Shown here: piece by piece, positions 18,953 to 42,283 of the stretch
Layout of the letters: the number at the start of each line of letters is the position of its first letter
Numbering within the stretch: position 1 is the first letter of the stretch
NCBI RefSeq assembly: GCF_002163625.1
Contig: NZ_CP020892.1
Span: forward strand, 4,588,001 to 4,652,000
Length of the DNA: 64,000 nt
Direction of reading: 5' to 3'
DNA from: Pseudomonas sp. M30-35
GTDB taxonomy: Bacteria > Pseudomonadota > Gammaproteobacteria > Pseudomonadales > Pseudomonadaceae
Position numbers and translations under genes: made by a program
Notes under the pieces: generated by a model
Database searches by the model: none
Told to the model about the DNA's origin: nothing
Seen by the model: the letters and a program-made list of their open reading frames with translations, nothing else

Positions 18953-21900
18953 ATGTCCCAATTTTTTATCAATCGCCCGGTATTCGCCTGGGTGATCGCC
19001 CTGTTCATCGTGTTGGTCGGCGTGATCGCCATCCCGCAGTTGCCAATTGCCCGCTATCCGTCGGTGGCACCGCCGTCGGTGACTCTCTACGCCACCTATC
19101 CGGGGGCCACCCCGCAGACACTCAACGACTCGGTGGTGAGCTTGGTCGAGCGCGAGCTGTCGGGGGTGAAGAACCTGCTGTACTTCGAATCCTCGGTCGA
19201 CACCTCGGGTAGCGCGCAGATCACCGCCACCTTCAAGCCGGGCACCGACGCGGAGCTGGCCCAGGTGGACGTGCAGAATCGCATCAAGGCCGTCGAGCCG
19301 CGCCTACCTCAGGCCGTGCGGCAAAGCGGCCTGCAGGTGGAGTCCGCTGCCTCGGGCTTTCTGATGATGGTCGGCATGACCTCACCCAACGGCCAATTTG
19401 ATGAAGTCGCACTGAACGACTATCTGGCGCGAAACATCGTCCAGGAGCTACGGCGCATCGACGGCGTGGGGCGTGTGCAACTGTTCGGCGCCGAGCAGGC
19501 CATGCGCGTCTGGGTCGACCCGCACAAGCTCACCGCCTACGGCCTGACGATGAACGAGCTGGCCCAGGCTATCGAACAGCAGAACGCACAGATTGCACCC
19601 GGGCGGGTCGGCGACGAGCCCGCGTTGCCGGGCCAGCGCCTGACTGTGCCGCTGACCGTGCAGGGGCAACTGACCAACCCGGAACAGTTCGCTGCCGTCG
19701 TCCTGCGTGCCGGCGCTGATGGAGCGAAGGTCGTGCTCGGCGATGTGGCGCGGATCGAGCTGGGCGCTCAGTCCTATGGTTTTTCCAACCGTGAGAACGG
19801 CGTTGCGGCGACCAGTGCCGCCATTCAGCTTTCGCCCGGTGCCAACGCCGTGCGCACTGCCTCGGCCGTGCGCGAGCGTCTGGCCGAGCTGGCGCCGGGC
19901 ATGCCGGAGGGCATGGCCTACTCGGTGCCATTTGATACAGCGCCCTTCGTCAAGGTTTCCATCGAGAAGGTGATCTACACCCTGTTCGAGGCCATGGCGC
20001 TGGTGTTTCTGGTGATGTTTCTGTTCCTACAGAACATACGCTATACGCTGATCCCGGCAATCGTCGCGCCCATCGCGCTGCTTGGCACCTTCGCGGTGAT
20101 GCTGCTGGCCGGCTTCTCGATCAACTCGCTAACCATGTTCGGCATGGTGCTGGCCATCGGTATCATCGTCGACGATGCCATCGTAGTGGTCGAGAACGTT
20201 GAGCGGCTAATGGCAACCCAGGGACTGTCGCCGAAGGAAGCCACCTCGCGGGCGATGCAGGAAATCACCGGCGCGGTGATCGGCATCACTCTGGTGCTCA
20301 CCGCCGTATTCATCCCCATGGCCTTCGGCAGCGGTTCGGTGGGAGTGATCTACCAGCAGTTCACCCTGTCGATGGCGGTGTCGATTCTGTTCTCGGCCTT
20401 CCTTGCCCTGACCCTGACGCCTGCGCTTTGCGCCACGCTGTTGCGTCCGGTCAGCGCTGACCACCATGAGAAACGTGGATTCTTCGGTGCCTTCAATAGG
20501 GGCTTCGAGCGCCTCACGGCGAGCTACGGAGCGCGCGTGACGCTCCTGGTCAGTCGTAGCGGGCGGATGATGGCGGCGTTCGCCGTACTCTGCGTGGTAT
20601 TGGTCATCACCGCTGGTCAGCTGCCGTCGTCCTTCCTGCCCGAAGAAGATCAGGGTTACTTCATGACCTCCATCCAATTGCCCACCGGCGCCACAAGCGA
20701 ACGCACGCTGGAAGTGGTCAAGGCTTACGAGGCACACGTGGCATCGCGTCCGGGGCTGGACGCGAACCTAGTGGTGCTGGGTTTCAGTTTCGCTGGCTCC
20801 GGCCCCAACGCAGCAATGGCCTTCACCATGCTCAAGGATTGGGATCAGCGTGATGGCGCCAATGCTGCCGAAGAGGCGGCGCTGGCGCAGCAGGCCATGG
20901 CCAACAACGTCGAAGGCACGGTGATGAGCCTGATGCCGCCGGCGATCGACGAGCTCGGCACATCTTCCGGTTTCACTCTGTTTCTGCAGGATCGGGCCAA
21001 CCGGGGCGAGGCCGCGTTGCTGGCTGCGCAGACACAACTGTTGCAACTGGCCGCACAGAGCGAGGTGGTCAGCGATGTCTATCCGGACGGCCTGCCACCC
21101 GGCGAAAGCATCCGCTTGGAGATCGACCGGCAGAAGGCCGAAGCTATGGGCCTGTCCTTTGCCACAGTGAGCAGCACGCTGTCGGCGGCCATGGGCTCGC
21201 TGTACGTCAACGATTTCCCCAATGCCGGGCGTATGCAGCAGGTCATCCTGCAGGCCGACGCCCCTGCGCGCATGCAACTGGACGACGTACTCAGCCTGCG
21301 CGTGCGCAATGCCACTGGCGGCATGGTGGCGCTGCGTGAGGTGGTGATACCGGTGTGGAGCGAGTCGCCGCAACAATTGATGCGTTTCCAGGGCTTCCCC
21401 GCCGTACGACTCTCCGGGGGCGCAGCGCCGGGCGTGTCCAGCGGTGTGGCGATGGCCGAAATGGAGAGACTGGTTACTCAGTTGCCGCAAGGCTTCGCCG
21501 TGGCTTGGACAGGACAATCGCTGCAGGAACGTCAGTCGGCGGCGCAAGCACCGCTACTGATGCTGCTCTCGGCGCTAGTGGTGTTCCTAGTACTGGCGGC
21601 GCTGTACGAGAGCTGGTCGATTCCGATGTCAGTGATGCTGGTCGTGCCGCTGGGCCTACTCGGCGCGGTGGCCGCAGTGATGCTGCGTGGCATGCCCAAT
21701 GACGTGTTCTTCAAGGTGGGGATGATTACCATCATCGGTCTGTCGGCGAAGAACGCCATCCTCATCGTCGAGTTCGCCCGCCAGTTGCACGCTGAAGGTC
21801 GCACGCTGGTCGACGCCGCGGTGACCGCAGCGCGCCTGCGCCTACGCCCGATCCTGATGACTTCGCTGGCCTTCACTCTCGGCGTGGTACCGCTGATGCT

Positions 21901-22090
21901 CGCCAGCGGCGCCAGCGCGGAAACCCAGCACGCCATCGGTACCGGAGTGTTCGGCGGCATGCTCAGCGGCACCTTGTTGGCGGTGTTCTTCGTGCCGGTC
22001 TTTTTCGTCGTCGTTGTCGGCACGCAGGAGCGCTTGAGCGCCCGGCGTGCGCAGCGTGGCAGTGCCTCGTTGGCTCAGGAGAACCCTTGA
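18953..22090 (+). CDS. adeB-like: RND multidrug efflux pump (AdeB/MexB-like, HAE1)
   Basis: This is a 1045-residue inner-membrane drug:proton antiporter with 12 helices and two large periplasmic loops, the normal size for HAE1 pumps. It starts MSQFFINRPVFAWV. The proton-relay aspartates are present in helix 4 (GIIVDDAIVVVENVE, near residue 407), as are the helix 10 lysine (SAKNAILIVEFA) and an arginine in RLRPILMTS. Reading against memory, it is closest to AdeB of Acinetobacter. Likely substrates are cationic and amphiphilic drugs, including aminoglycosides in AdeB, but this is inference. It lies 16 bp after the adaptor gene and overlaps the channel gene. Confidence 0.95.
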   Translation: MSQFFINRPVFAWVIALFIVLVGVIAIPQLPIARYPSVAPPSVTLYATYPGATPQTLNDSVVSLVERELSGVKNLLYFESSVDTSGSAQITATFKPGTDAELAQVDVQNRIKAVEPRLPQAVRQSGLQVESAASGFLMMVGMTSPNGQFDEVALNDYLARNIVQELRRIDGVGRVQLFGAEQAMRVWVDPHKLTAYGLTMNELAQAIEQQNAQIAPGRVGDEPALPGQRLTVPLTVQGQLTNPEQFAAVVLRAGADGAKVVLGDVARIELGAQSYGFSNRENGVAATSAAIQLSPGANAVRTASAVRERLAELAPGMPEGMAYSVPFDTAPFVKVSIEKVIYTLFEAMALVFLVMFLFLQNIRYTLIPAIVAPIALLGTFAVMLLAGFSINSLTMFGMVLAIGIIVDDAIVVVENVERLMATQGLSPKEATSRAMQEITGAVIGITLVLTAVFIPMAFGSGSVGVIYQQFTLSMAVSILFSAFLALTLTPALCATLLRPVSADHHEKRGFFGAFNRGFERLTASYGARVTLLVSRSGRMMAAFAVLCVVLVITAGQLPSSFLPEEDQGYFMTSIQLPTGATSERTLEVVKAYEAHVASRPGLDANLVVLGFSFAGSGPNAAMAFTMLKDWDQRDGANAAEEAALAQQAMANNVEGTVMSLMPPAIDELGTSSGFTLFLQDRANRGEAALLAAQTQLLQLAAQSEVVSDVYPDGLPPGESIRLEIDRQKAEAMGLSFATVSSTLSAAMGSLYVNDFPNAGRMQQVILQADAPARMQLDDVLSLRVRNATGGMVALREVVIPVWSESPQQLMRFQGFPAVRLSGGAAPGVSSGVAMAEMERLVTQLPQGFAVAWTGQSLQERQSAAQAPLLMLLSALVVFLVLAALYESWSIPMSVMLVVPLGLLGAVAAVMLRGMPNDVFFKVGMITIIGLSAKNAILIVEFARQLHAEGRTLVDAAVTAARLRLRPILMTSLAFTLGVVPLMLASGASAETQHAIGTGVFGGMLSGTLLAVFFVPVFFVVVVGTQERLSARRAQRGSASLAQENP

Positions 22091-23526
22091 TGCGCCTGTT
22101 ACTGACCCTACCGCTACTCGGCTGTCTGACTGCCTGCTCACTGACGCCAACCCTGCAACGTCCAGCCGCGCCGGTGCCAACGAGCTTTGCTATAGCCTCC
22201 GAAAAACCTGCCTCGACACTGCCGGCCAGTGCGCTGGGCTGGCGCACGATGTTTAGCGATCCGCGCCTGCAACGACTGATCGACCTGGCCTTGACGAATA
22301 ACCGCGACCTGCACCTGTCCATCCTCAACGTTCAGGCGGCGCAGGCGCAGGCGAATATCCAGCACGCCTCGCGCCTGCCAGCCGTAGGGCTGGAGGCGAC
22401 ACGCACGCGTGAGCGGACCCTGAGCAACGACGCGAACGGCAGCGCCAGCCGCGAGATGAGCCAGCAGGCTGGGGTGAGCGTCACCCTCAGCGCCTTCGAG
22501 TTGGATCTGTTCGGTCGCGTGCGGGCGCTCTCCGATGCCGCGTTGGCGCGCTATCTGGCTAGCGAGCGAGGGCGTGACGCAGCGCAGATCAGTTTGATCG
22601 GTGCGGTGGCCGAGGCTTACTTCGCCCAGCGCCTGGCCGACGAGCAACTCCAACTGGCCGAGCGTACCTTGGCCGACTGGCAGCAGTCGCTGGAGTTGGC
22701 GCGCTTACTCAAGCAAGCCGAGCAGAACAGCAGCCTAGACGTGGCCCAGGCCGAAGGGCTGGTGGCCCTAGCCGATGCCGACCTGGAAGCGCGCCACCGC
22801 GCCCTGGCCGAGGCAGACAACGCGCTGCAGTTGCTGGTGGGCAACGAGCTGCCCGACGACCTGCCGCCCGCCTTGCCATTGGAGCGCCAATCGGTGATCG
22901 CGCAGCTGCCGGCCGGGCTTCCGGCTGATCTGCTGCTGAGCCGGCCGGATTTGCGCCAGGCCGAACAGATGCTGGTGGCCGCCAATGCCAATATTGGTGC
23001 AGCGCGGGCGGCGTTCTTTCCGCAGATATCCCTCACCGCTTCCTTCGGTTATGCCAGCACCTCGCTCGGCGCCCTGTTCGATCCGGCCCGACAAGTTTGG
23101 CGATTCGCCCCGCAGATTTCCCAGCCGCTGTTCCAGGGCGGGCGTCTGCGCGCCGAACTGCGTTTGGCTGAGGTGCGCAAATTCGAGGCTGTCGCCCAGT
23201 ACGAACGCGCCATTCAGACCGCCTTTCGCGAAGTGGCCGACGCCCTTGCTGGAACGGCTACTTACGACCGCCAGATCGATGCGCAGCTACGTGCGGTGAC
23301 AGCTGCCGAGCGGCGTCTGCAACTGTCCGACCTGCGCTACCGCGCTGGCGTCGACGGTCGGCTGGAGCTGCTCGATGCCCAGCGCCAACTGCACGCCGCA
23401 CGTCAGGCACTGCTGGAACTGCGCCGCGCTGAAATCGCCAACCGGGTGGCACTGTACAAGTCCCTCGGTGGCGGCCTGTACGAGCGCGATATCTCGGAGA
23501 TTGCCGCTGTCACAGCGGCTCAGTAG
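22090..23526 (+). CDS. adeC-like: Outer-membrane efflux channel lipoprotein (NodT/OprM family)
   Basis: This 478-residue TolC-type channel protein has a lipoprotein signal (MRLLLTLPLLGCLTAC, acylated cysteine at residue 16). Two outer-membrane efflux repeats follow, including LELDLFGRVRALSDAALA-like and LLSRPDLRQAEQML segments typical of NodT/OprM. It completes the tripartite pump with the adaptor and RND protein. The ATG at 22090 overlaps the RND stop codon (TGATG); an upstream TTG at 22087 is in frame but unnecessary. Having its own channel gene makes the locus self-sufficient. Confidence 0.94.
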   Translation: MRLLLTLPLLGCLTACSLTPTLQRPAAPVPTSFAIASEKPASTLPASALGWRTMFSDPRLQRLIDLALTNNRDLHLSILNVQAAQAQANIQHASRLPAVGLEATRTRERTLSNDANGSASREMSQQAGVSVTLSAFELDLFGRVRALSDAALARYLASERGRDAAQISLIGAVAEAYFAQRLADEQLQLAERTLADWQQSLELARLLKQAEQNSSLDVAQAEGLVALADADLEARHRALAEADNALQLLVGNELPDDLPPALPLERQSVIAQLPAGLPADLLLSRPDLRQAEQMLVAANANIGAARAAFFPQISLTASFGYASTSLGALFDPARQVWRFAPQISQPLFQGGRLRAELRLAEVRKFEAVAQYERAIQTAFREVADALAGTATYDRQIDAQLRAVTAAERRLQLSDLRYRAGVDGRLELLDAQRQLHAARQALLELRRAEIANRVALYKSLGGGLYERDISEIAAVTAAQ

Positions 23527-24230: not shown

Positions 24231-25025
24231 TCACGAATCTAGCGCCAACGCAGCAAGCTTCGCCACCTCAAGGGGGATTACCGGCTTAATGTCATCTTCG
24301 AGCATCCAGGCGGCTGACAAACCGGCCCACGCCAGTACCCATTGCAATAACCTGCGGCGATCAATCTTGGAAGTTTGGGCGACGATGCCGATTCGGCGCG
24401 CAAAACAGCCTGGCGCCAAAGCGCTTTTGCTATCGGGATTGCAAAAAATATTCGCGTAATCGAAGCCGCGTTCTCCGTACAGTCCTTTAGGATCAATAGC
24501 GAGCCATCCCTTGGGGCCGAAGTCCAATACATTGCCGTGGTGGATGTCACCATGCAGTACCCTGACATCGCGCGGGGCACTTAAGAGTTTGCGGGCAGTT
24601 TTTGCGCATTGCTCAAAGATCCCTCTGTGCGTTACCGCTGCGCTCCACAGGGCTTCGAACCATTGCTCCAGCGGGACTAAAGCAGGAGCCGGTTGTGTAC
24701 GTGGTGTGTGAAGACGGCCGGCCACAGCACAAAGAATGCGAGTAGCCTCGTCGTCCTGGCCAACGCTCACCAAGTGCGTAAGCGAGCCCGAGCCCTTCGC
24801 GCGCTCCATAAGCAAAGTCTCTCCATCATGCGCCAGTACTGGCGCCGCACCCTCACCGTCCCACCAAGCCATGAGCAGGTTGCCTGCTTGCTCTTCTAGC
24901 TCTCGCGAGATTTTGAGCATCGCTGGCAAGCCATTCTGGCGAACGGGCAGTAGATGTCCATTTAGCGAGACAAAAGCGTCGCCATCGATGGTCAGCTCCC
25001 ATCGTTTCAGGTATTGATCAAACAT
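24231..25025 (-). CDS. APH(6)/hydroxyurea-type phosphotransferase
   Basis: This 264-residue kinase-like protein matches the aminoglycoside/hydroxyurea antibiotic kinase family (APH(6), StrB-like). It has the nucleotide-binding lysine K38, the Brenner motif HGDIHHGN (H158, D160, N165) and the metal-binding aspartate in LAIDPKG (D178). LYGERGFDYANIFCNP is typical of the family. Known members phosphorylate streptomycin at the 6-position, but many chromosomal homologues do not confer resistance, so activity is uncertain. The start is ATG at 25025, seven bases after the upstream gene's stop codon, indicating an operon with the serine hydrolase. Confidence 0.85.
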   Translation of the reverse strand: MFDQYLKRWELTIDGDAFVSLNGHLLPVRQNGLPAMLKISRELEEQAGNLLMAWWDGEGAAPVLAHDGETLLMERAKGSGSLTHLVSVGQDDEATRILCAVAGRLHTPRTQPAPALVPLEQWFEALWSAAVTHRGIFEQCAKTARKLLSAPRDVRVLHGDIHHGNVLDFGPKGWLAIDPKGLYGERGFDYANIFCNPDSKSALAPGCFARRIGIVAQTSKIDRRRLLQWVLAWAGLSAAWMLEDDIKPVIPLEVAKLAALALDS

Positions 25026-25032
25026 AAATCCA

Positions 25033-25920
25033 CTAATTTCGCTCTTGCCGCAAGGCTTGCATCAGCCGCTCTATAACTAAAGTTTCGACGGCGTCTTCAC
25101 TGGCGCCCGTCTCAAAAACAGCGCAACAAGCCGAAAAATCACCCTGGCGGAGATGGTAAGCGGCAATGACACTGCCAGGCCCGCAACCGGTGTGTCCGCA
25201 TAGGGAATACCCGCCATCAATAGAACCCTGCATCACACCAAGGCCATAGCCCGGAGTGATCCATGGACGTCCGGGAATTGGACCGCCCAATGCTCGTGCT
25301 TTCTGCATTTCCTGGAGCAATCCCATGGAGAGAAGGTCTCCGGTAAGGAGTCGACCCAGGAACAGCGCTGCCTGCGAAACTGGGCCGATCAGTAAGCCAT
25401 GATAGACCCAAGCGGGGTCATAACCTGTACTTCCAAGATGGGTCGTTTGTAAGTCTGCTCGCGTTTTAGCGAAGCGCACGCTCGACAGGCCAAGTGGGGT
25501 TAGTGCACGTTGACTCACTGCATCATCAAGCATCAGATCAGTCAGCTGTTGAATAAGCCGACCCACAAGCAAGTAGCCAACATTCGAGTACCGCCACCCG
25601 GTTCCGGGGCTGTATCGAACTCGAGAGCCATCAAGGCGTTGCATCATTTCATCCGCCGACCAAGCCGACTCATTGTTAGCAACGGCGGCGTGATACTCCG
25701 CAAGTTCGCCATAATCGGCAAGACCCGCTTCATGCCGCAGTAGCTGGCGCAACGTGAAGGGTTGATCAAGAATTGGATCGTCCAACCCGACCAGCCCATC
25801 ACGCACCAGCGATAGCGCAGTAACGGCTAAGACTGTCTTCGTAAAACTCCACCATGGCACCAACAGCTCTGATCGGTCATTAGGTAGTGGCTGACCATTT
25901 GATACGAGTGAACTCAGCAT
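25033..25920 (-). CDS. Beta-lactamase-family serine hydrolase
   Basis: This 295-residue protein of the class C beta-lactamase/esterase fold has the nucleophile motif SxxK (S25-F-T-K28 in WWSFTKT), the YSN motif and a late HTG motif (CGHTGCGPGS). Together these make a complete active site. No signal peptide is seen, so it is likely cytoplasmic and more probably an esterase or peptidase than a secreted beta-lactamase. I chose ATG 25920 because AAGGAAG precedes it; a GTG at 25974 would add 18 residues. It is the first gene of the minus-strand cluster with the APH-like and NUDIX genes. Confidence 0.82.
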   Translation of the reverse strand: MLSSLVSNGQPLPNDRSELLVPWWSFTKTVLAVTALSLVRDGLVGLDDPILDQPFTLRQLLRHEAGLADYGELAEYHAAVANNESAWSADEMMQRLDGSRVRYSPGTGWRYSNVGYLLVGRLIQQLTDLMLDDAVSQRALTPLGLSSVRFAKTRADLQTTHLGSTGYDPAWVYHGLLIGPVSQAALFLGRLLTGDLLSMGLLQEMQKARALGGPIPGRPWITPGYGLGVMQGSIDGGYSLCGHTGCGPGSVIAAYHLRQGDFSACCAVFETGASEDAVETLVIERLMQALRQERN

Positions 25921-26157
25921 TGGCTTCCTTGAAATGTTGAACGGATCCACAGCTCGACAAGATATCTCATTCACTCTTCTTCACCAGAATGTAGAGCCAT
26001 TGGTTTTATTGTCCCGAACGACTGCTATTGGCCCAGAGTGTGTAAAACGCGGCTCCGGTTTTGACGTCTGTACTGCTACTTGAAACCTGCCGTAGCCTGA
26101 CTGCCCTACAGGCAGCAACCCTCAAACGACATGTCCGACGAGCGGCTGACCCTTGTA

Positions 26158-32229: not shown

Positions 32230-32916
32230 CTAGATATGGCCGCCAACTCTAACTTTAAGACCCCAATCAGCTTCGAAACAGTCTCTCGCGGTTCCGACAA
32301 AAGCCTCGACTAAACGACGACGCATGTCTGGGTCATCGTGAAAGGCTGCAATCCAAATACTGAAAAAACCAGACTGCTTCGCAAGGTCGACCACCACCTC
32401 TCGGAAGTCGAGAGTATCGTTGCGCATCAACTTGGCGCGCGTGGCTTGAGCAAGCGTCCACTTCTCTTCACGCTCTAGATAGCGCTTATCTCGATCGGTC
32501 GGTTGTTTGGCGGCAGGCTGGCCGGGATGGCGATCCAACCCTACAAGGTCTATCAAAGCAGCCGCCTTAGCCTCAATTTGAGGGGCGAGCGCTAACGAAG
32601 GTTGAACTATCCCTCCATCTCTATATTCGATGGCAGTAAGAGTGTTGTCTTTGTCCGGCCAAAGAAAGTCATGATTGTTTGTCGGTTTATCGCCTTTGGT
32701 TGAATTACAGTTAACGCAACCAAGAAGAAAGTTGGTCCAATCGGTCGCACGTGCAGCATCTGAGCTTTTCGGAGACACATGCTCTACAGCCAAAAGCGCA
32801 GGGAAGCGACGTTCGCAATAACTGCAATATGAACCAAAGGCATCTTCTAGATCACCAATAGCCTCCTGATACTTTCCATATCTCTTGGGTGCCATCCCCC
32901 TTGTGATAGGCCTCAC
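32230..32916 (-). CDS. ptuB-like: PtuB-like HNH endonuclease (Septu-type defence effector)
   Basis: This 228-residue nuclease-like protein starts MRPITRG. It carries a zinc-supported HNH core: C31-x2-C34 (GSYCSYCE), the catalytic H46 in [10 protein letters not shown]62 in DWTNFLLGC, and C67-x2-C70 ([12 protein letters not shown]). This layout is the one I associate with PtuB, the effector of Septu anti-phage systems and of some retron systems. The gene overlaps the preceding ATPase gene by four bases, matching the PtuA-PtuB operon. It probably cleaves DNA or RNA when PtuA senses infection. A retron reverse transcriptase is absent here. Confidence 0.82.
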
Positions 32917-34373
32917 TGGGCTTTGCCCTCCGTCATTAGAACTTTAAGCAAGGCATGCAACGCGGGGTCTGCTGTAAATGGTTCGCTCGCATCCCGATAG
33001 AGTCTTTCAGCCTCGCGCAACTCGTCGGGGTCTACTTGGTGCGAGTCTTCCGCTTTCGTCTCAAGAAGTGTGAAGTAGCGTTTTGCCGCAGAGCTTAATA
33101 TTTCTGCCCGAACGCTGCGTTGAGGTTGGGAAATGCCTTGAACATCCTCAGCGATATCTTCAAGGCTATTCCCCCCCTCCAAGAGCACCATTGAGGAATG
33201 TGGCTCAATGAATGTAATTCGCTGGCGACCGGCCGCCTGAATCACAAAGGGCGAGTGGGTAGTGGCAATGAACTGGCAGTTGGGGAATATATCCTCCAAA
33301 GCTGGAACAATACGACGTTGCCACTTAGGGTGAAGGTGAACATCGATTTCATCAATAAGGATAATCGCTTCACCTTCGCCAAACGCACCATTCGGCCGGC
33401 TGACATACAGCTGTCTCGCAATGTCAACAAATAGCGAAAACAGCCGCTGCTCTCCGTCGGAAAGCTGATCCAGACTGAGGGTGCCTATTTTGCGCTTGAT
33501 CATGATTCGCGGAGTGAGCTTAACCTCCAGCGAACAAGATGTTAGAAACTCCTGGATGCCCTCTGACGGCAGCTTAATGCCTTGCCAAATCTGACGCAGA
33601 GAGGGCAGGTTCCTGTCAGGGGGCTCGGGTGTCAGGACGACTTTTGCTTGGTCAGGCCAATGGAAAGGCTGTTTTCGCATTCGGTCCTCTTGAAATTTGC
33701 GCATAGCAAAAATTCGAACATGCTTTTGCGTCTCTGCATCCAAGTAACTGTTCTTGTCTTTCCCTCTTGGGGGGACGAGAGAGCAGTCATAAGGCTCGAA
33801 GTGCCAATAGAAAGCACCAATATCAGTAGAGAATGTAGAAAGTACTTTTCCAACAAAATTTCGCACTGACCGACTGTCTCCGAACTGGCGCTCGCTTGCT
33901 TCAGTTGGCCTGTTAGAGAAATCTCTTTCAGCGGCATACAAAAAGGCTTCACTGCTCCGGAGCCGATCGCTGTAATCCTCCCGGACTTTGGGGGCACGTT
34001 TCATTTTCAGTTCGGAACAGATGGCTTCGTTCGACGAGTACAGCAGAATCAGTGGAAGATTCCCTCGAGGAGCTGAACGAGTAGCACGCTCCCAAAGCTT
34101 CTTCTGAAGTTGAAATTTTTCAAGCTTGCCTTCCGCGGGTTGAACCAGCGCACTCACGGCAGCGTCACGCGCTCTCAGCCGAATATCTTTGTCTTCTAGT
34201 CTTGGACGTCGTCTCATTTGCTGTGCGCTACCCAATGCCGCGAGCATGCTGCGAAGGATCGTAGTCTTGCCAGCGCCATTTTCACCTACTAGCAAGTTAA
34301 AACCGGGTTGAAATTCGAAAGTTCGTTGTTCGAACTGGCGAACATTAGTCAAGGCTAGACTGTGTAAATGCAT
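32913..34373 (-). CDS. ptuA-like: PtuA-like AAA/OLD-type ATPase (Septu sensor)
   Basis: This 486-residue ABC/SMC-like ATPase starts [15 protein letters not shown] and has Walker [10 protein letters not shown] at residues 30-38. A long insert follows, then an ABC signature-like LSDGEQRLF, Walker [13 protein letters not shown] (D341, E342) and the H-loop ATTHSPF. Such ATPases pair with an HNH nuclease in Septu. The start is uncertain: ATG 34373 fits the family, while a TTG at 34454 would add 27 residues that look unrelated. It is the first gene of the two-gene minus-strand operon and lies back to back with the giant STAND gene. Confidence 0.82.
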
Positions 34374-34914
34374 AGTCGTGATAGGTCCCAGTTTCTCTGT
34401 GTATCGGAAGTTTAGTGATGGCGGTTGCTCCGCCAAGGATATGGCCGAGCGCAAGTAAGCTTACCGAACGCCCCCATGGTTGCCTACGACTCATCTGCGT
34501 GCGCTCACTCAGGGGAAGGTCCGTCGGATTGCCCGCAGCGCGCGCACGATTATCACCGCAGGCCAGAGATCCGGCGCTCTAGCAACCAATCCAATAAGGT
34601 TTCTACCCCCCCCAGAGCTTCTTATGCAGAAGCCACCAGCGACGGTGATTGTAGTGGTCTACTGATCCCGGACACCCACTTAGGGCGAGAGTGCTCGCCA
34701 TAGAAGGAAAATTATTTATTGGTTGAATCCACAGCTGATGTTAGTCATTCACGACCCATCTCGTGAATGACCGCTCCGATTGGGGCTGGCCAGGCTTCGT
34801 TTCAGAGCAGCGCTCAATGACTTAGCCGCATCTACCGTCTGTTGCTGGACGCCTCGGGTTATGCTGAAGCAGTATTCTTGGTATCAGTTGGCGTCAACTA
34901 CCTAATCCATTCAC
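34374..34914. other. Divergent intergenic region between Septu-like and STAND genes
   Basis: I see no gene here. The region should hold promoters for both defence units. It contains a perfect 11-bp inverted repeat GTCATTCACGA / TCGTGAATGAC with a six-base loop (34744-34771), followed by AATGACCGCT-type sequence resembling the junction element seen elsewhere in the accessory block. A run of eight C residues occurs near 34606. Confidence 0.5.
34744..34771. repeat. Perfect 11-bp inverted repeat in the defence intergenic region
   Basis: GTCATTCACGA (34744-34754), loop CCCATC and TCGTGAATGAC (34761-34771) are perfectly complementary. The repeat lies 143 bp upstream of the STAND gene. It could be an operator, a transcript end or part of a mobile-element scar. 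Confidence 0.65.
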
Positions 34915-37900
34915 ATGGCTCCAAAAATGTCCAAGAAACCGAATCCATCAACCTCTGTAGCTCCAGCAACTGCGCCGGCGGAAGGCGAACGCCGAGCACT
35001 CCGTGGATACATTGGCCAGTACGAGCGGGCGGGCGCTGCCATTTATGCTGCGCTCGAGCGCGACGAGCTGCTCTGGATCGGCGTCGCAGACCGCAACGCG
35101 GGTATTGCCGACGACTTGGTGCTCGGTTTCGATGGGGTGGTGGTCGGTCACCAGTTCAAGACGTCCAAGTTCCCAGGCACTTTCACTGTTGAGACGCTGT
35201 TTACTGGTGCCAACGGCCTGTTGAGGCCCCTGGTTCATGCTTGGCAGTGCCTGCGGAAGGACAACCCGGGAAGCCGGGTCGAGATTCGCCTGGTTGTTAA
35301 TGACTTTCCGTCGATTACTGACAAGCCAGGCGATGGCACGCCGCCCCACAGCGCGGCATTTCTTGAGGAACTCCAACAGCATCCAAATCGGCCGCTAGCG
35401 GATTGGTACACGCAGGAATGGAGTCGACTGATCAACCACCTGCGCCGTGAAGCCGGCCTGGGCGATGACGACTTCGAATTTTTTTTGCACAGCCTCCGTG
35501 TGGTGTGCGGAGCTGCGGCGGACTTCATCCAGTCGCACAAATTGAACGCCGAGCAGGCGCGGCAGGCATCCGAGATTGCAAGCGTACTGCCCAAGCTGGT
35601 CGCCGATGCCCGCGACAAAGACAGGTGGACGCGTGACGAGCTGCTTCGTGAGCTTGGCTGGCGCGATCCCTCCAAGACGCTGCTAATCCACCGGTTCCCA
35701 GTCGGCGCCTATGTTCAGCGCAACCGTGACACTGAGGCCAAGCTGCTAGCCGCGCTGCATGCCGCCGACCAGGGCTACGTCTCACTCATAGGACCGCCTG
35801 GCTCCGGGAAGTCCACTCTCCTGCAGGTTGCGCTGGCCACTGAGGCTAATATCCGGCTCGTTCGCTACTTGGCGTACGTGCCAGGTGCTGCTCAAGGCGT
35901 GGGTCGCGGGGAGGCCGACAACTTCCTGACTGACGTCGGCACGCAGTTACGCAACAGCGGTTTGGTTGGACTTCGTCTTCGCGACGACTCGCTGCATGAG
36001 CGCCGAGAGCAGTTCGGCGTCTTGGTACAGCAGGCTGGTGAACGCTTCGACCGCGACGGGATCCGAACAATCATCGTCGTCGACGGGCTCGACCATGTGC
36101 CTCGCGAAGAGCGGCCGACCAATTCGCTTCTGGGCGAGCTGCCTCTTCCCGCTGCCATCCCCAACGGGGTTGTGTTCATCCTCGGCACGCAGCGGCTGGA
36201 TCTCGCGAATCTGAAGCCCGCAGTAAGAGAGCAAGCGGAGAAAAGCGAGCGACAGGTTCTCATGGGACCTCTCGGCCGCGAGGAGGTCGCCCGGATGGCA
36301 GATGCGCTTGGCCTGCCTGCCGAGATTCCAAGATTGGATCTAAGCAATCTATCGCATGGCCACCCGCTGGCAACGCGCTACTTAATTCATGCGCTGTTGC
36401 ACGCGGACGAAGCCGGCAGTAAGCACCTTCTCAGCGGTGGGATGCCGTTCGACGGCGATATTGAGACCGTGTACACCGCTGCTTGGCGCGAGATCGCAAG
36501 CGATGTCGATGCCATGGACGTGCTGAGCTACATCGCTCGTGCTGAGGCACCTGTGGACCTGCGGCTGCTGGCCACAATGGTCAAGGAGTCCGCGATTGAA
36601 CGCGCTCTGATCGTTGCACGGCACCTGCTCCGTAGTTCATCCCAGGGGTGGAGCGTCTTCCACAACAGCTTTCGGCTGTTCGTCATCGCTCAACCTCGAA
36701 CCCGCCTCGGAAGCGTCGATGCCGAATACTCGCAGCGCGTGTACCGCGACCTCGCCCAGTTGGCGAAGAACGCGCCGCCCGAATCGGCGCAGTACTGGCT
36801 TGAGTTGCGCTACCGCGCCCGTGCCGGCGACGGTGCCGATGTACTTGCGCTAGCTATGCCCGCTCGCTTCAGGCAGCAACTGGCTGACGGGCGTTCTATC
36901 GCCGAGATCCACGCCGATATCCGCCTAGCTCTGCTGGCAGTGCGTGGAACGCACGATGCGACCGCCTTCGCACGGCTGCTGCTGTGTCGTGACGAAGTGG
37001 GACGGCGGGAAACTGCCCTTGAGTACGCCAACCAGCTTCCGCTGGCGATGCTAGCGGTTGGGGACATTGATGCAGCCCTGGCCTTCGTGCAGTACTTCCC
37101 CAGCCAGGGCTACGAGGTCGTCGACGCCCTGTTAGCGCGAGGGGACTTCGAGCGGGCGAAGGAACTGTTTGAAAGCCTCGAGCCACTGTCGCAGCTCCAT
37201 ACGTCCAAGTTCCAGAACCACGGGCACGACCACAACATAACGGAATTCGAGAGGTGGGCAAGGCGCGCCGTCCACTTCCGAGACACCGAGCAGATCCAGA
37301 TAGCGATTGACCACCTCGCCGCAGAGGGGCTACGCCAGCCCGAAAAGGTGGATCCGCAAACTGTCGCCGCGCTGCAACTGCATCTGAGGAGGGAAGCCGC
37401 AGAGGCGATGCTCCTTCAGAAGGTTGGCGCCGATCCACAAGACCTCTGCAGCAAGCTCGGGGTAGCCAACGAAGACAAACCTTCGGTGATGGTTCACGCA
37501 GGTCTTGTGGCCAGTCGGCGTGGCGACGTTGCGCAAGCGCTTGCCCTGTTTGATGCTGCCGCCGCCCTTCCTGGCTTCGTAGAGGTACCCAACGGCTACC
37601 GACGCCGGATGGCACTAATTGCATTCGAAGCTGACCGTCGTGACCTAGCCGAGGCCCTGTTCGACAAGCTGGTCGCACCGATGATCTCTATGTGCGACGA
37701 CGAGACGGACCTGGCTGGGCTGGGTAATCTGGTCGGTGCGGTGATGCATCACGCGAGGCTTTGCACGCTGCTCAATAAGCCGCTGCCAAGCGCGACACCG
37801 TCGAAGCACACCTTCCTTCATCCGTTCCAGCAGCACGCCTCGACGATAGGCGTGCTTCTAGGTCGCGCCGCCATCGACAACGCGTCCGTGCCGGCCGGCA

Positions 37901-40900
37901 GCATCCAGGACGAAGCCCGCATTGCCCTTGGGTACGTCCTAAGTCTGACATCAGAAGGCGGCAGCGAGTCATATCGCATCCAGCAGGCCTTCAAAGCGGT
38001 CCCCGTGCTCGTGCCAGTGCTGCTGAGGCTCGGCGCCAAGCGCGGCGAGACTGAGTACCGTGCGGTACTTCGGGAAATTGACGCAGCCATCGCCTCATCG
38101 ACGCTGGGGGGCACTGCGTACCTGCGACGCAGATTGGTCGTCGATGCGTATAGGGTTGACGGTGACCGGGTGGCGGCCGTCGATCGACTCAACGCACTCG
38201 TGGCGGAGCTTCAGGAGAGCACGCCGAGCGAGCAGATCGACGGGGTGGCCGATCTGGCCATCGCGTTGGCTGCGGTCGGGGACTTAGAGCGGGCCAAACA
38301 GTTGCTGGCGACGGTTCCCGAGCAATGCCTTGGCTACGCGTTGGCCCCCAAGAAAGACCCCCAGTACGCAATCTGGCGAGACATCCTGGTCCTTGCGAAC
38401 GCCGCTGACCCGGAGAACCGTGTCAAGCGAGTCTTGACCTTAATGCGCCAGGTCGGCGGCATGACCGAAACGGAGGGCTCGTCGGCCGCGCATCGTTTGA
38501 CGATGTCGCTAATCGAGGAAGCGACGCAGGTCGGACCTCGCTTCGGCTTCGAGGTGTCAAAGACACTGGCGGATTGGAATCTGATTGGCTGGCCGAACCG
38601 TGTTGACCTGCTCATGACGGGGATGGTGCGGCGAAGCCCTGAACTCGTCCTGGCTTGCGCGACGGTCTGGTGCGGTCTGTGTCTGCCGTTCTACATGGAA
38701 CCGTACTACCGGGACCCGCACCACGTCGGTGACTTCATCGACATCGCCGCCGACGCCGTAGGACCTATACAGATTGAACCGCTCGCGCGGATGTTTTTGG
38801 CGGTGATCGAGGTAGCCAGCAGGGCACACGAGAGGGTCGGACTGCTCCAGCGCCTTCGCACCGCTGCCGGAAGACATGGGTTTTCATCTGCCGAGCTCGA
38901 CGCCGCCGTAGCCCGGTGGACGTCAGAAGCGCCGGAACCTCGACACTCGTATACGCCAAGCAAGTACGACTCGGAGACCACTCTCGAGCAGCTTGAGCGC
39001 GCGTTTGAAGCGGATGGCGACGAACTGAACTACAACGCCCCGTACCGTTTCAGAGATCTGGCCGAGACGGCCCCGCTTCATCTGGCGCGGAGGATTTTTG
39101 AGCGCTGGCAGGTCTTGCAGGACGACGCGCGCTGCCGCTTCCTGATGGTTCAAAGGTTGGCTGCGGCGGGGGAGGTCGAGTACGCCAAGAAGCTGATGCA
39201 AGGCTACGAGTCAAGCAAGGACCCCTGGAGTTCCTGGAGCCAGTGGATGGGTGGCGGTAAGTTCTTCTACTTTGAGGCGAAGAAGCTCTTGCAGGGACCA
39301 TCCACATGCCCAGCCGCCTTCGAGAACATTGTCGATTCAGTAACGGCGGGCCAGGAGAACACCCAGTCACTGCTGACAGAGCTGGATTCGATAATGCCGG
39401 TAATCAGCGCGACGCCGGATTGGCCGGCCATCTGGTCGCTACTTGAGGAGCAGATGGCCTGCACTCGCGAGTTCCAGCTGGGGCGACCCTTCCAGCCGAG
39501 CGAGCTACCGCTCAGCGACACGGAACTTTTGGAGGATCTGCTGCACTTTGCCTATCGGCTGCCCGTTGCAGAAGTTCAGCGACACGCACGCAATTGCACG
39601 TTGAGCCTGGCAAGGCAAGCCGGACTCGGCCAAGATTTGTTCAAGTCCCTTATGCGGCGACTTATAGCCGGCGAATTAGATGCCCCCTTGCATGCGCTCG
39701 GAACTCTGCTGGCTGCTGACAGCGCGGACCTTGCCCCCGAGTTGGGCAGCGCCGTGGCTGCGTTGGTCAGTCACCGTGACATCGCGGTGGCAGAGTCAGC
39801 CGCGCTCTTGTCGCATCGGTGGAGGCAGGCTGTCCCCTTGGACGCGATACCACTGCCGCTCTTCTATCGCCTTGAACTCGAGCACCCGCCAGAGGGCGAC
39901 CAGGCATTCACGGACGAAAGAACTGGTGCAATGCGCGTCGAGTCGCCGCTTGGCTGGACCGAGATGTTGCGCTCGACGGCACGTCACATCGCGAAGGCGG
40001 CAGGCATTGAGGAGATGACAGTCCGCCGACGCGCGGCGATGTTCATCCAGGATTGGGGTGGACTTGAGGCATTCGGGCCCTCTGGCACCAAAAGGCTTGA
40101 GACTCAGCTTCGCGTGCTCGACATGCAGATCACTTACCTGAAGCCCCACGCCTACATTGCCCTTGCCGCACTTCGCCACGTCGCAGGAGAACTGCGGCTG
40201 GCCGGCAAAGTGAAAGGCAGCGACATGCTCACGCTTTTGGAACGTTTGGGCTGCCCGCTTCCGCCTCGACCACTGAAGCTCCCACGAGGGCGCCCCGAGT
40301 GGATCCGAATGCCGCTGTTGAACCGAAGTGCGGGTTGGTCCGAGCGAGAACGGAAATGGATTGACGAAGTCGACGGTGATGTTGCCCCCTTCCCAGCAGA
40401 CAGCCACGGCCAAGTCGTGGCCGAAGTATCCTGCTTCAAGATTCTCAAGCCACGGCTGTCGGAGCACCGTCTCTACCGCTTTAGAGCACCCTCGGCAGAG
40501 ATTGACAGTGAAGACTTCGACGACTGCTATGCCAGGCTGCCCATCGCTGTTTGGCTTGGCCAGTACGTCGCATTTGACAATGATCTGGCGCCAACGCTGG
40601 TAAGGAGGGTTGTTTGCTCGGTGGACATGGGCTTTGACGCAGCGGCCTATTCGTTCGCTTTGTGCCCGAACTGGATGAAGCGGCTTCGCTGGAGCGCGCA
40701 TGGCGAGGAGCCCAGCGTCTTCCTCGACCCGAGCGGCGCTGTGATCGCAAGGCTCTGCTGGTGGCGTGATGCCGGCCCGGTTGATATCGATGCGGAGTCC
40801 CTGTGGGGAGAGGGTTGCTACCTCGTCCTGACGTCATTAGGCATCGAACAGGTCACCACTGCCCGTGGGAAGCCGGACCTTGACATCAGCGTGTTCGCAA

Positions 40901-40974
40901 GCAGGCAGATCAAGCAACCGAGCAGCTACGGGGAGTCTCTCTTGAAGACGGCGAAGAACGGTTACTCAATCTAA
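34915..40974 (+). CDS. Giant Avs-like STAND NTPase with N-terminal nuclease-like domain
   Basis: This single 2019-residue frame has the layout of antiviral STAND proteins. Residues about 28-130 resemble the Cap4/DUF4297 nuclease domain: RGYIGQYERAGAAIYAAL, an acidic ADDLVLGF (D66, D67) and HQFKTSK (Q80, K82), a QxK variant of the PD-(D/E)xK core. A P-loop NTPase follows (GPPGSGKST, 293-301; Walker B TIIVVDGLDHV, D390). About 1,100 residues of helical repeats resembling TPR come next, then a separate C-terminal region (about 1780-2019). Known Avs proteins bind a phage protein through the C-terminal repeats and then activate the N-terminal effector. Neither trigger nor exact family can be told here. 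No good ribosome binding site precedes the ATG at 34915. The frame is intact throughout. Confidence 0.75.
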   Translation: MAPKMSKKPNPSTSVAPATAPAEGERRALRGYIGQYERAGAAIYAALERDELLWIGVADRNAGIADDLVLGFDGVVVGHQFKTSKFPGTFTVETLFTGANGLLRPLVHAWQCLRKDNPGSRVEIRLVVNDFPSITDKPGDGTPPHSAAFLEELQQHPNRPLADWYTQEWSRLINHLRREAGLGDDDFEFFLHSLRVVCGAAADFIQSHKLNAEQARQASEIASVLPKLVADARDKDRWTRDELLRELGWRDPSKTLLIHRFPVGAYVQRNRDTEAKLLAALHAADQGYVSLIGPPGSGKSTLLQVALATEANIRLVRYLAYVPGAAQGVGRGEADNFLTDVGTQLRNSGLVGLRLRDDSLHERREQFGVLVQQAGERFDRDGIRTIIVVDGLDHVPREERPTNSLLGELPLPAAIPNGVVFILGTQRLDLANLKPAVREQAEKSERQVLMGPLGREEVARMADALGLPAEIPRLDLSNLSHGHPLATRYLIHALLHADEAGSKHLLSGGMPFDGDIETVYTAAWREIASDVDAMDVLSYIARAEAPVDLRLLATMVKESAIERALIVARHLLRSSSQGWSVFHNSFRLFVIAQPRTRLGSVDAEYSQRVYRDLAQLAKNAPPESAQYWLELRYRARAGDGADVLALAMPARFRQQLADGRSIAEIHADIRLALLAVRGTHDATAFARLLLCRDEVGRRETALEYANQLPLAMLAVGDIDAALAFVQYFPSQGYEVVDALLARGDFERAKELFESLEPLSQLHTSKFQNHGHDHNITEFERWARRAVHFRDTEQIQIAIDHLAAEGLRQPEKVDPQTVAALQLHLRREAAEAMLLQKVGADPQDLCSKLGVANEDKPSVMVHAGLVASRRGDVAQALALFDAAAALPGFVEVPNGYRRRMALIAFEADRRDLAEALFDKLVAPMISMCDDETDLAGLGNLVGAVMHHARLCTLLNKPLPSATPSKHTFLHPFQQHASTIGVLLGRAAIDNASVPAGSIQDEARIALGYVLSLTSEGGSESYRIQQAFKAVPVLVPVLLRLGAKRGETEYRAVLREIDAAIASSTLGGTAYLRRRLVVDAYRVDGDRVAAVDRLNALVAELQESTPSEQIDGVADLAIALAAVGDLERAKQLLATVPEQCLGYALAPKKDPQYAIWRDILVLANAADPENRVKRVLTLMRQVGGMTETEGSSAAHRLTMSLIEEATQVGPRFGFEVSKTLADWNLIGWPNRVDLLMTGMVRRSPELVLACATVWCGLCLPFYMEPYYRDPHHVGDFIDIAADAVGPIQIEPLARMFLAVIEVASRAHERVGLLQRLRTAAGRHGFSSAELDAAVARWTSEAPEPRHSYTPSKYDSETTLEQLERAFEADGDELNYNAPYRFRDLAETAPLHLARRIFERWQVLQDDARCRFLMVQRLAAAGEVEYAKKLMQGYESSKDPWSSWSQWMGGGKFFYFEAKKLLQGPSTCPAAFENIVDSVTAGQENTQSLLTELDSIMPVISATPDWPAIWSLLEEQMACTREFQLGRPFQPSELPLSDTELLEDLLHFAYRLPVAEVQRHARNCTLSLARQAGLGQDLFKSLMRRLIAGELDAPLHALGTLLAADSADLAPELGSAVAALVSHRDIAVAESAALLSHRWRQAVPLDAIPLPLFYRLELEHPPEGDQAFTDERTGAMRVESPLGWTEMLRSTARHIAKAAGIEEMTVRRRAAMFIQDWGGLEAFGPSGTKRLETQLRVLDMQITYLKPHAYIALAALRHVAGELRLAGKVKGSDMLTLLERLGCPLPPRPLKLPRGRPEWIRMPLLNRSAGWSERERKWIDEVDGDVAPFPADSHGQVVAEVSCFKILKPRLSEHRLYRFRAPSAEIDSEDFDDCYARLPIAVWLGQYVAFDNDLAPTLVRRVVCSVDMGFDAAAYSFALCPNWMKRLRWSAHGEEPSVFLDPSGAVIARLCWWRDAGPVDIDAESLWGEGCYLVLTSLGIEQVTTARGKPDLDISVFASRQIKQPSSYGESLLKTAKNGYSI

Positions 40975-41357
40975 GCCATGCAGATTCAGTGGCGATGTCA
41001 AGCGAGAGGGGCCGTGCTGGCTTGAGCTGGCTGTCCCGGAGGGCTGCTTCCGGTCGGTGGCTAGCGTTCATAGTACCCTAACGATCGATCGCTCCCGATG
41101 CGAAGCAGCCATCGGACTTTCCAAATCGAGCTTCTGCTTTGAGTCGATTTGAGCCGATTACGACAGGCAGCTATTGGCCGTTCTCTGCCGGTCACGGAAG
41201 GCTGAAATCGACCAAAAACGGACAGCTGTAGCAGATAGAGCCTCTTACCAAAATCAAAGCTCTGCAACTATTCCAGCAGCCACTTTCTGCAATCGATCTG
41301 TACCCGAAACCAATAGTTTGCCACTCCCCAAGTCGCGGCCTATCCCCTTCCCCGCTT
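40975..41357. other. Right edge of the accessory block, gene-free
   Basis: No supported gene is seen between the STAND gene and the conserved unknown. The stretch 41160-41230 contains GCTATTGGCC (41170-41179) and TCGACCAAAAACGGACAGC (41208-41226), which resemble sequences at other module junctions (26024-26033 and 32175-32193). Confidence 0.5.
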
Positions 41358-41855
41358 TTAAGTGCGAGCGCCTGAGGGGCTGCGGGCATTTTTCTTTTGC
41401 AGGATGATCGATGCATCGTTGTAGGCGCTCTGAAAGGCGTCGCCACCGATCCATTCAACTGCCGTGTCTTCGTCTTCATCGTGGAAGATCCCGCGATAGG
41501 TGATCAGCAGGCCCATCATGAAGTCGGTGGCTGAGTCTTGCGCTTCCTCGGCGATCACCAGCTCCAATACGGGGTATTGCAGAAATACCAGGCACATTGC
41601 GAGCAGGCTGATGCCTTCGCCATATTTCATCGCCTCAAACAGGTCGTTGAAATGCGCGGGATCGAAACCGTTTTCTTCGATGTCTTTAAAGTCGAAGGTG
41701 CTCAGGTCGATCTCAACATCATCGAACGGCTCGTCAATCAACGGATTGGCCAACACCGGATGCACAACATTCGGCTTAGCCTTGCCCGAACGGTTTTGCT
41801 TGGCTTTTGCTTTGGCCCGCTGGGCGCGTTTTTGCTGTTTATCTGGCGAGGCCAT
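41358..41855 (-). CDS. Conserved protein of unknown function
   Basis: I do not recognise a named family. The protein is about 165 residues. It has a highly basic N-terminal segment (PDKQQKRAQRAKAKAKQNR, which could bind nucleic acid or ribosomes) and an acidic middle (DEPFDDVEIDLSTFDF). A mostly helical C-terminal half carries LLAMCLVFLQYPVLELVIAEEAQD. I prefer ATG 41855, which has AAGGA about ten bases upstream; ATG 41885 would add ten residues. Its position between the accessory block and the backbone GspE gene and its composition suggest a backbone gene. It has no signal peptide. Confidence 0.7.
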   Translation of the reverse strand: MASPDKQQKRAQRAKAKAKQNRSGKAKPNVVHPVLANPLIDEPFDDVEIDLSTFDFKDIEENGFDPAHFNDLFEAMKYGEGISLLAMCLVFLQYPVLELVIAEEAQDSATDFMMGLLITYRGIFHDEDEDTAVEWIGGDAFQSAYNDASIILQKKNARSPSGART

Positions 41856-42283
41856 GGCAGAGAGATCCTTGTTCGGTGCAGCCATATTTATGGCCCGGGA
41901 TAATCGGAGGCACATTGTAAACAGTCTAGGCGGGGTTCGGCGGCCAGAGGGCGCAGATTTATTTTCAGGGCTTAGGCATCTGCCGCAGCCCCTTCACTGC
42001 TCGCTAAATCTTGCTCACTGGCCAACTTACATTTGCCTGCGCAGCACGGTTCAGAATTATCCCAATAACGATTACTCAACCGTTAACCTGCATGGTTCAA
42101 GCAATGTTGTTGTGCCACGCGCTTTCGAGCATTCTAGGCGACAGTTCCGCACACAGTACTTGAGCCACGCCAACAGCACAGGTTCGCGCAGCCGACTACT
42201 CTACAGAATCAGTAGCTGCTAGCTGACAAGCTCGCCACTTGGCTTCAAGCTAGGTGCATCACGAAATGACTGCAGGAAAACAC
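41856..42283. other. Divergent spacer upstream of the GspE-type gene
   Basis: No gene is supported. The open frames here are in the shadow of the minus-strand gene or lack ribosome binding sites. Promoters for the unknown gene and the GspE-type gene must lie here, but no clear boxes were found. Confidence 0.45.

Follow-up and report, generated by a model that had tools for sequence, protein, structure and literature searches.

What kind of protein does the long gene at 34915 to 40974 (+ strand) encode in a 64,000-nucleotide stretch of the Pseudomonas sp. M30-35 genome (NZ_CP020892.1, positions 4,588,001 to 4,652,000, here called the window), and does it belong to one of the Avs types already described? 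The gene is complete, as a sequence-only reading of the window had stated. It starts with ATG and none of its 2,019 codons is an internal stop, and its product is predicted to consist of a Cap4 nuclease, a STAND NTPase, a helical solenoid and a C-terminal alpha/beta domain. It is a real, intact, widespread and mobile receptor of the Avs type and represents an unnamed AVAST lineage outside the Avs models tested. We consider it probable that this one protein constitutes an antiphage system of the AVAST type, from a lineage with no curated model among those tested, and that it works by the mechanism proposed below.

The link to the Avs proteins and nucleases in PDB is visible solely through folds and profile-profile comparison. 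AlphaFold2 models were made of both halves (pLDDT, the predicted local accuracy score, 87 and 90) and for both the best match among solved structures was Avs3 bound to phage terminase (PDB 8dgc). The N-terminus had been suspected to be nuclease-like, of the Cap4/DUF4297 kind, and structure prediction indeed gives it a Cap4 fold: residues 27-249 of the model superpose on Cap4 nuclease, and the core (residues 33-128) runs helix-strand-strand-strand-helix-helix-strand. The domains, all on the + strand, are a Cap4-like PD-(D/E)xK nuclease with a D...QxK core in the predicted structure (residues 23-250, 34981 to 35664); a STAND NTPase with a winged-helix region (residues 255-620, 35677 to 36774), which has the Walker A and B motifs, the STAND-like fold and the downstream repeats of that superfamily; a helical, TPR-like solenoid seen in the AlphaFold2 models and in the profile comparison, presumably the sensor scaffold (residues 621-1790, 36775 to 40284); and an alpha/beta domain, presumably the part contacting the ligand (residues 1791-2019, 40285 to 40971), which lies inside the co-linear match to Avs3. 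The more than 1,000 residues of helical repeats and the distinct C-terminal region noted earlier are found in the model as a solenoid to about residue 1790 followed by a beta-rich domain, whose first long strand begins at residue 1832.

Conservation was assessed in an alignment of 90 rows, in which residues 1-860 of the window protein were set against 89 homologues (26-93% identity). No variation is seen at D66, D67, K82, K299, S300, D390, H394, R397, E398 and H583, and conservation is 90% or more at D59 and Q80; with such conservation the catalytic motifs are not due to chance. The motifs stand where the earlier reading put them, D66-D67 at 35110 to 35115, Q80-F81-K82 (the QxK nuclease core) at 35152 to 35160, Walker A GPPGSGKST (residues 293-301) at 35791 to 35817 and the Walker B aspartate D390, in IIVVDGLDH, at 36082 to 36084, all on the + strand. 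The profile alignment pairs D67 with the invariant D62 of Avs3a, Q80 and K82 with its Q82-x-K84, K299 with K293 and D390 with D391. That reading had found no obvious acidic residue ahead of the nuclease core, where it saw the letters ADR. The acid of this ADR, D59 (35089 to 35091, +), is by its conservation a candidate third catalytic residue; it aligns to G42 of Avs3a, in the column adjacent to the invariant E41.

Which of the known types is nearest was studied with hhalign, using a 48-row profile of the window-protein family and sets of nine Avs3a proteins (two annotated avs3a genes in plasmid records, one PADLOC Avs3a match of 1,990 bits and six tblastn relatives), four Avs1b proteins, each adjoining avs1a and avs1c, and four Avs2-like proteins (L028 found by PADLOC, and three tblastn relatives). 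The E-values vary with alignment depth and settings. Against the nine Avs3a the full-length comparison extends over 1,858 columns (8-2025 versus 4-2071) with E 4.8e-34; it gives 9.3e-33 with alignment A2 instead of A8, about 1e-18 against four Avs3a rows, and 1.2e-60 over 1,894 columns in a local run with another option. Against Avs1b it extends over 1,576 columns (271-2006 versus 209-1904) with E 2.5e-45. Judged by these profiles the protein is a mosaic by domain. The nuclease segment (20-254) is related to Avs3a only (E 6e-7 with nine rows, 0.0094 and 3.8e-5 with two four-row sets; Avs1b 0.35, Avs2 0.63). The NTPase segment (255-620) is nearest to Avs1b (7.7e-32), followed by Avs3a (4e-12 with nine rows, 8e-8 and 3.5e-7 with four) and Avs2 (4.1e-5), and the solenoid segment (621-1640) is related both to Avs1b (7.3e-15 over 903 columns) and to Avs3a (4e-12 over 961 columns with nine rows, 7.3e-6 and 1.4e-6 with four; Avs2 0.3). 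For the C-terminal segment (1641-2019) the values are 2e-5 for Avs3a (nine rows; 0.12 and 0.15 with four), 0.011 for Avs1b and 0.29 for Avs2. The comparison domain by domain thus points to an effector of the Avs3 kind on a receptor core nearest to that of Avs1b.

Could the window protein then simply be a divergent Avs3 (AVAST type 3) which needs no name of its own? Its domain order (Cap4, STAND, solenoid, C-terminal domain) and its length of about 2,000 residues equal those of Avs3a, the fold and the profile match from end to end, and the QxK Cap4 core is common to both. On the other hand, the Avs3a model (PDLC02167) has no match in the window's own genome at E<=1e-3, and Avs3a is absent from the PADLOC matches (E<=0.01) and the NCBIfam matches (E<=1) of the gene. 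Nor does the avs3b model (PDLC02168) match anything in that genome at E<=1e-3, whereas six of eight plasmid loci with Avs3a (L054-L061) have, downstream of avs3a, a gene that overlaps or adjoins it. The NTPase, moreover, is far nearer to Avs1b, and Avs3a is split off in the NTPase tree described below. We find this explanation unlikely.

The window protein is not an ordinary Avs1b either. Among known proteins Avs1b has the NTPase and solenoid closest to those of the window protein, but it is annotated as a protease, which is trypsin-like, and adjoins avs1a and avs1c. The window protein has a Cap4 nuclease in the place of the protease: residues 20-254 fail to align with Avs1b and no trypsin-like protease was found there, and the PADLOC and NCBIfam Avs1b models match only from residue 279/280 onward, the latter with 60.8 bits against a cut-off of 1500. 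No avs1a or avs1c match was seen among ten window proteins scanned with PADLOC, a scan that did not take in all small open reading frames (ORFs) such as avs1c. The models for Avs2 (NF041813), Avs4 (NF041815 and PDLC02169) and Avs5 (NF041814) have no match in the genome, and the gene has no PADLOC match to Avs2 at E<=0.01. Avs4 bound to portal (8dgf) resembles the STAND core in the N-terminal half (E 1.4e-7) but is not among the best 50 matches listed for the C-terminal half. Avs4 and Avs5 do not figure among the rows of the VIA tables either, an absence without significance. From the Cap4 of CBASS, a SAVED-nuclease, and from DUF4297 the protein differs in that its nuclease is joined to a STAND receptor rather than to SAVED, and the signal would be expected to be a protein and not a cyclic nucleotide.

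The suggestion of a possible new Avs type is therefore supported in part. It largely holds as to the Avs class and holds as to the nuclease, and none of the tested Avs2-5 models matches the gene, Avs1b staying under its cut-off. It does not hold as to length, which had been thought greater than that of typical members. The Avs3a model of PADLOC is 2,090 positions long and the Avs1b model of NCBIfam 1,931, which rules out length as a novelty; shorter models exist (Avs2 1,317, Avs4 1,579, Avs5 763), and most of the 120 homologues listed, out of 259, have about 2,000-2,050 residues. Literature searches, with most subscription papers out of reach, gave none on the lineage among the titles listed, and we do not claim it as unpublished. 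It would add to the known Avs proteins a large receptor lineage, widely distributed in bacteria, archaea and conjugative plasmids, which the tested Avs models do not call.

How this lineage is related to Avs1 was approached with an NTPase tree of 51 rows, the root of which was placed on Avs3a by choice. Avs3a stands apart (100/100), Avs1b forms one branch (100/98) and Avs1b together with three plasmid proteins (L101-L103) another (97/83). Holding the 36 rows of the window-protein family together is not rejected (approximately unbiased test, p-AU 0.384; 0.209 without P0286, P0287 and P0290) and long branches meet in the tree, and for these reasons we do not claim that Avs1b nests inside the family. 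The rows headed by Cap4 (the window family, Avs3a and, judged by eye, L101-L103) surround the single protease-headed Avs1b branch, a pattern that one head swap in the Avs1b lineage would explain. Our tentative proposal, to which we give a little less than an even chance, is that the window lineage keeps the ancestral architecture of Avs1, a receptor for terminase that carries its own Cap4 nuclease, and that in Avs1b a trypsin-like protease, which activates a separate pro-nuclease, has taken the place of the Cap4 head; the lineage would then be a further AVAST type, a single-gene cassette moving between proteobacteria, with wider relatives in archaea. This would offer the specific hypothesis of one phage-protein sensor refitted with different killing heads. 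The three plasmid proteins (L101:6284-10705, L102:6260-11980 and L103:6206-10624, on plasmids of Cupriavidus, Pseudoalteromonas and P. aeruginosa) are STAND proteins annotated merely as ATP-binding protein.

Another possibility is that the protein has nothing to do with defence and is a STAND regulator of the MalT kind or a housekeeping ATPase. The nuclease head with its invariant core speaks against this, and so do the distribution and the surroundings of the gene. Scoring of 7,991 candidates gave 259 homologues at E<=1e-3, and the 120 listed have 66-98% identity; 31 genome loci were collected (31-98% identity, two of them partial). The occurrence is sparse: five of 369 genomes of the class match, full-length only in the window's own genome and partially in the other four. 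The enterobacterial form was found in 11 of the 5,426 complete genomes of E. coli; nine of its places are chromosomal and two are on plasmids, and identity is 99% or more throughout. Relatives occur in 26 plasmid records, 15 of them predicted to be conjugative. Six of the 26 cover 80% or more of the query (five enterobacterial, about 54% identity, and one from Sphingobium, 32%), while the others have about half of it or less in common, several of them the NTPase only. Wider relatives in archaea (Methanosarcina, Methanoregula) were found in a search with the Rhizobium protein. A gene carried by phages was considered and rejected: a collection of 50,697 phage records gave no match at E<=1e-5, and the sole locus on a viral contig (L037) resembles that of Polynucleobacter (L008) so much in its ORF pattern that it is probably chromosomal.

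The flanks were scanned with PADLOC (E<=1e-12) for 160 of the 198 ORFs of at least 170 residues within 6.5 kb of the gene at 30 loci, L012 and L037 being omitted. The first 80 ORFs matched 58 models and the second 80 matched 63; the matches listed include Mza, Zorya, type I and IIG restriction, DISARM and Druantia methylases, Qat, MADS, Wadjet JetC/JetD, Juk, Bov, Dsr2, Avs2, PD-Lambda-4 and SoFic. A control scan of 67 ORFs from six stretches of congeners gave four models, one member each. Six large flanking ORFs taken singly matched PD-Lambda-4_A, Dsr2, PDC-M54A and Avs2, two having no match at E<=1e-10. In the record annotation Dsr1 adjoins the wider relative of Nitrosococcus, and AbiEi/AbiEii that of Rhizobium. 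Taken with the plasmid and island locations, these flanks make a role outside defence very improbable.

If the window protein is an antiphage receptor, its mechanism can be pictured as follows. The solenoid and the C-terminal domain would recognize a conserved protein of the phage, with the large terminase subunit as the likeliest candidate. This contact would release the STAND NTPase to oligomerize, probably into a tetramer as in Avs3, which acts as a tetramer; Avs2, like Avs3, senses terminase, and Avs4 senses portal. The clustered N-terminal Cap4 nucleases would then cut double-stranded DNA and the cell would die or be arrested before phage release (abortive infection). We somewhat favour the large terminase as the trigger, by analogy: the nearest characterised proteins are Avs3, with terminase bound according to the title of PDB entry 8dgc, and Avs1 (EpiAvs), which PMC12799240 describes as specifically activated by terminase, and terminase binding is hence expected by homology. 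The proposal lends itself to direct testing, for it concerns one self-contained gene in which candidate catalytic residues are identified, and it names a likely trigger.

It should be noted that a number of observations weigh against our reading. It rests on computation. Pfam assigns no family to residues 1-260 at E<=10, not even PF14130 (Cap4/DUF4297); a wider relative (L042) matches PF14130 at E 0.0028, under the cut-off. Searches of PDB sequences found no Avs protein and no nuclease at E<=1, either with the single protein or with HMMER profiles, and there was none among the best 60 of 74 matches of a profile search at E<=10. A shallow profile of 22 close relatives (A1) showed no relation to one Avs3a (probability 0.3%, E 0.23). 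The alignment does not establish D59 as the equivalent of Avs3 E41. The 31 loci were gathered by two peptide patterns taken from A1, which under-samples distant relatives, and the flank counts are of models and not of genes (one gene can match many), cover a part of the ORFs and have a control from one genus. Finally, both alignments are less conserved past residue 860 than in the NTPase, with residues 1791-2019 belonging to the more variable parts. The match of the C-terminal domain to the Avs proteins described so far is weak as well, and the ligand may therefore differ. The same machine might thus respond to another trigger, for instance to portal, to an early protein or to more than one protein. 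Avs5 is described in PMC12931631 as sensing the early protein JADA, and the paper cites results with CapRel and Avs2 as a sign that there may be multiple triggers. Since the solenoid is homologous to those of Avs1 and Avs3, both linked to terminase, we regard another trigger as possible but less probable, and keep the large terminase as the preferred one.

The gene also raises the question of how it travels. On the evidence of DNA similarity it moves alone, as a single-gene unit. The cassette, delimited by DNA matches longer than 250 bp only, reaches from 34734 to 41194 (+): the closest loci match at 34734-41194 (98.3%, L013) and 34734-41190 (97.5%, L006), both Pseudomonas, at 34734-41097 (91.6%, Parasulfuritortus, L009) and at 34730-41150 (85.6%, Pararobbsia, L011). 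A mechanism of movement was not found. About 10 bp inside its left edge is an 11-bp inverted repeat (34744 to 34771), perfect here and in L013 and imperfect in L006, and at the right edge L006 has a possible GGCAGCTAT...ATAGCTGCC hairpin (around 6547), degraded in the window; the cassette may be bounded by such hairpins. A non-coding stretch with CGAATTTCCTGACTGAAC, absent from the window, is common to three loci (L006:99, L013:9791, L010:9961). In two Pseudomonas loci it directly precedes the cassette, and in Nitrosomonas eutropha it lies at most about 40 bp from the start codon, which hints at how the left edge recombines. The idea that the cassette ends are a genomic repeat was rejected, as a search allowing up to three mismatches finds the 20-mer of the right end at a single place in the genome.

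The cassette is part of an island of about 31.7 kb (10622 to 42283), which four of the six congeners compared do not have. In these four (L085-L088) 157-1,275 bp separate the block at about 4.2-10.6 kb of the window from 42.3 kb, which makes the 31.7 kb extra in the window genome; in the other two (L083, L084) the T2SSE gene is the sole match to the window.

The island also contains a Septu operon which, as the sequence-only reading had seen, stands back to back with the gene: ptuB (32230-32916) and ptuA (32913-34454), together 32230 to 34454 on the - strand. It looks intact (PtuB model E 9.2e-79, with HNH in PtuB; PtuA E 2e-61). The divergent orientation, with 460 bp between the two units, might suggest a composite system of Septu and STAND, but neither PtuA nor PtuB is matched in any of the 31 genome loci of the homologues, and the two units are separated by the cassette edge at 34734. 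A common system is thus hardly credible, and we judge Septu to be a separate one.

A few further observations may be mentioned. On an IncC plasmid of Vibrio cholerae a wider relative (L039:7980-14127) is annotated as two overlapping genes of 1,250 and 800 residues, possibly a split or broken receptor. Downstream of the gene two overlapping ORFs on opposite strands, 41361-41915 (-) and 41500-42222 (+), have no Pfam match at E<=1e-3 and no tblastn match in the six congener stretches. Elsewhere the island holds a gene for an RND efflux pump (18953-22090) with its outer-membrane partner (22087-23526), a gene of the APH(6)/hydroxyurea-kinase family (24231-25025) and one of the beta-lactamase family (25033-25974).

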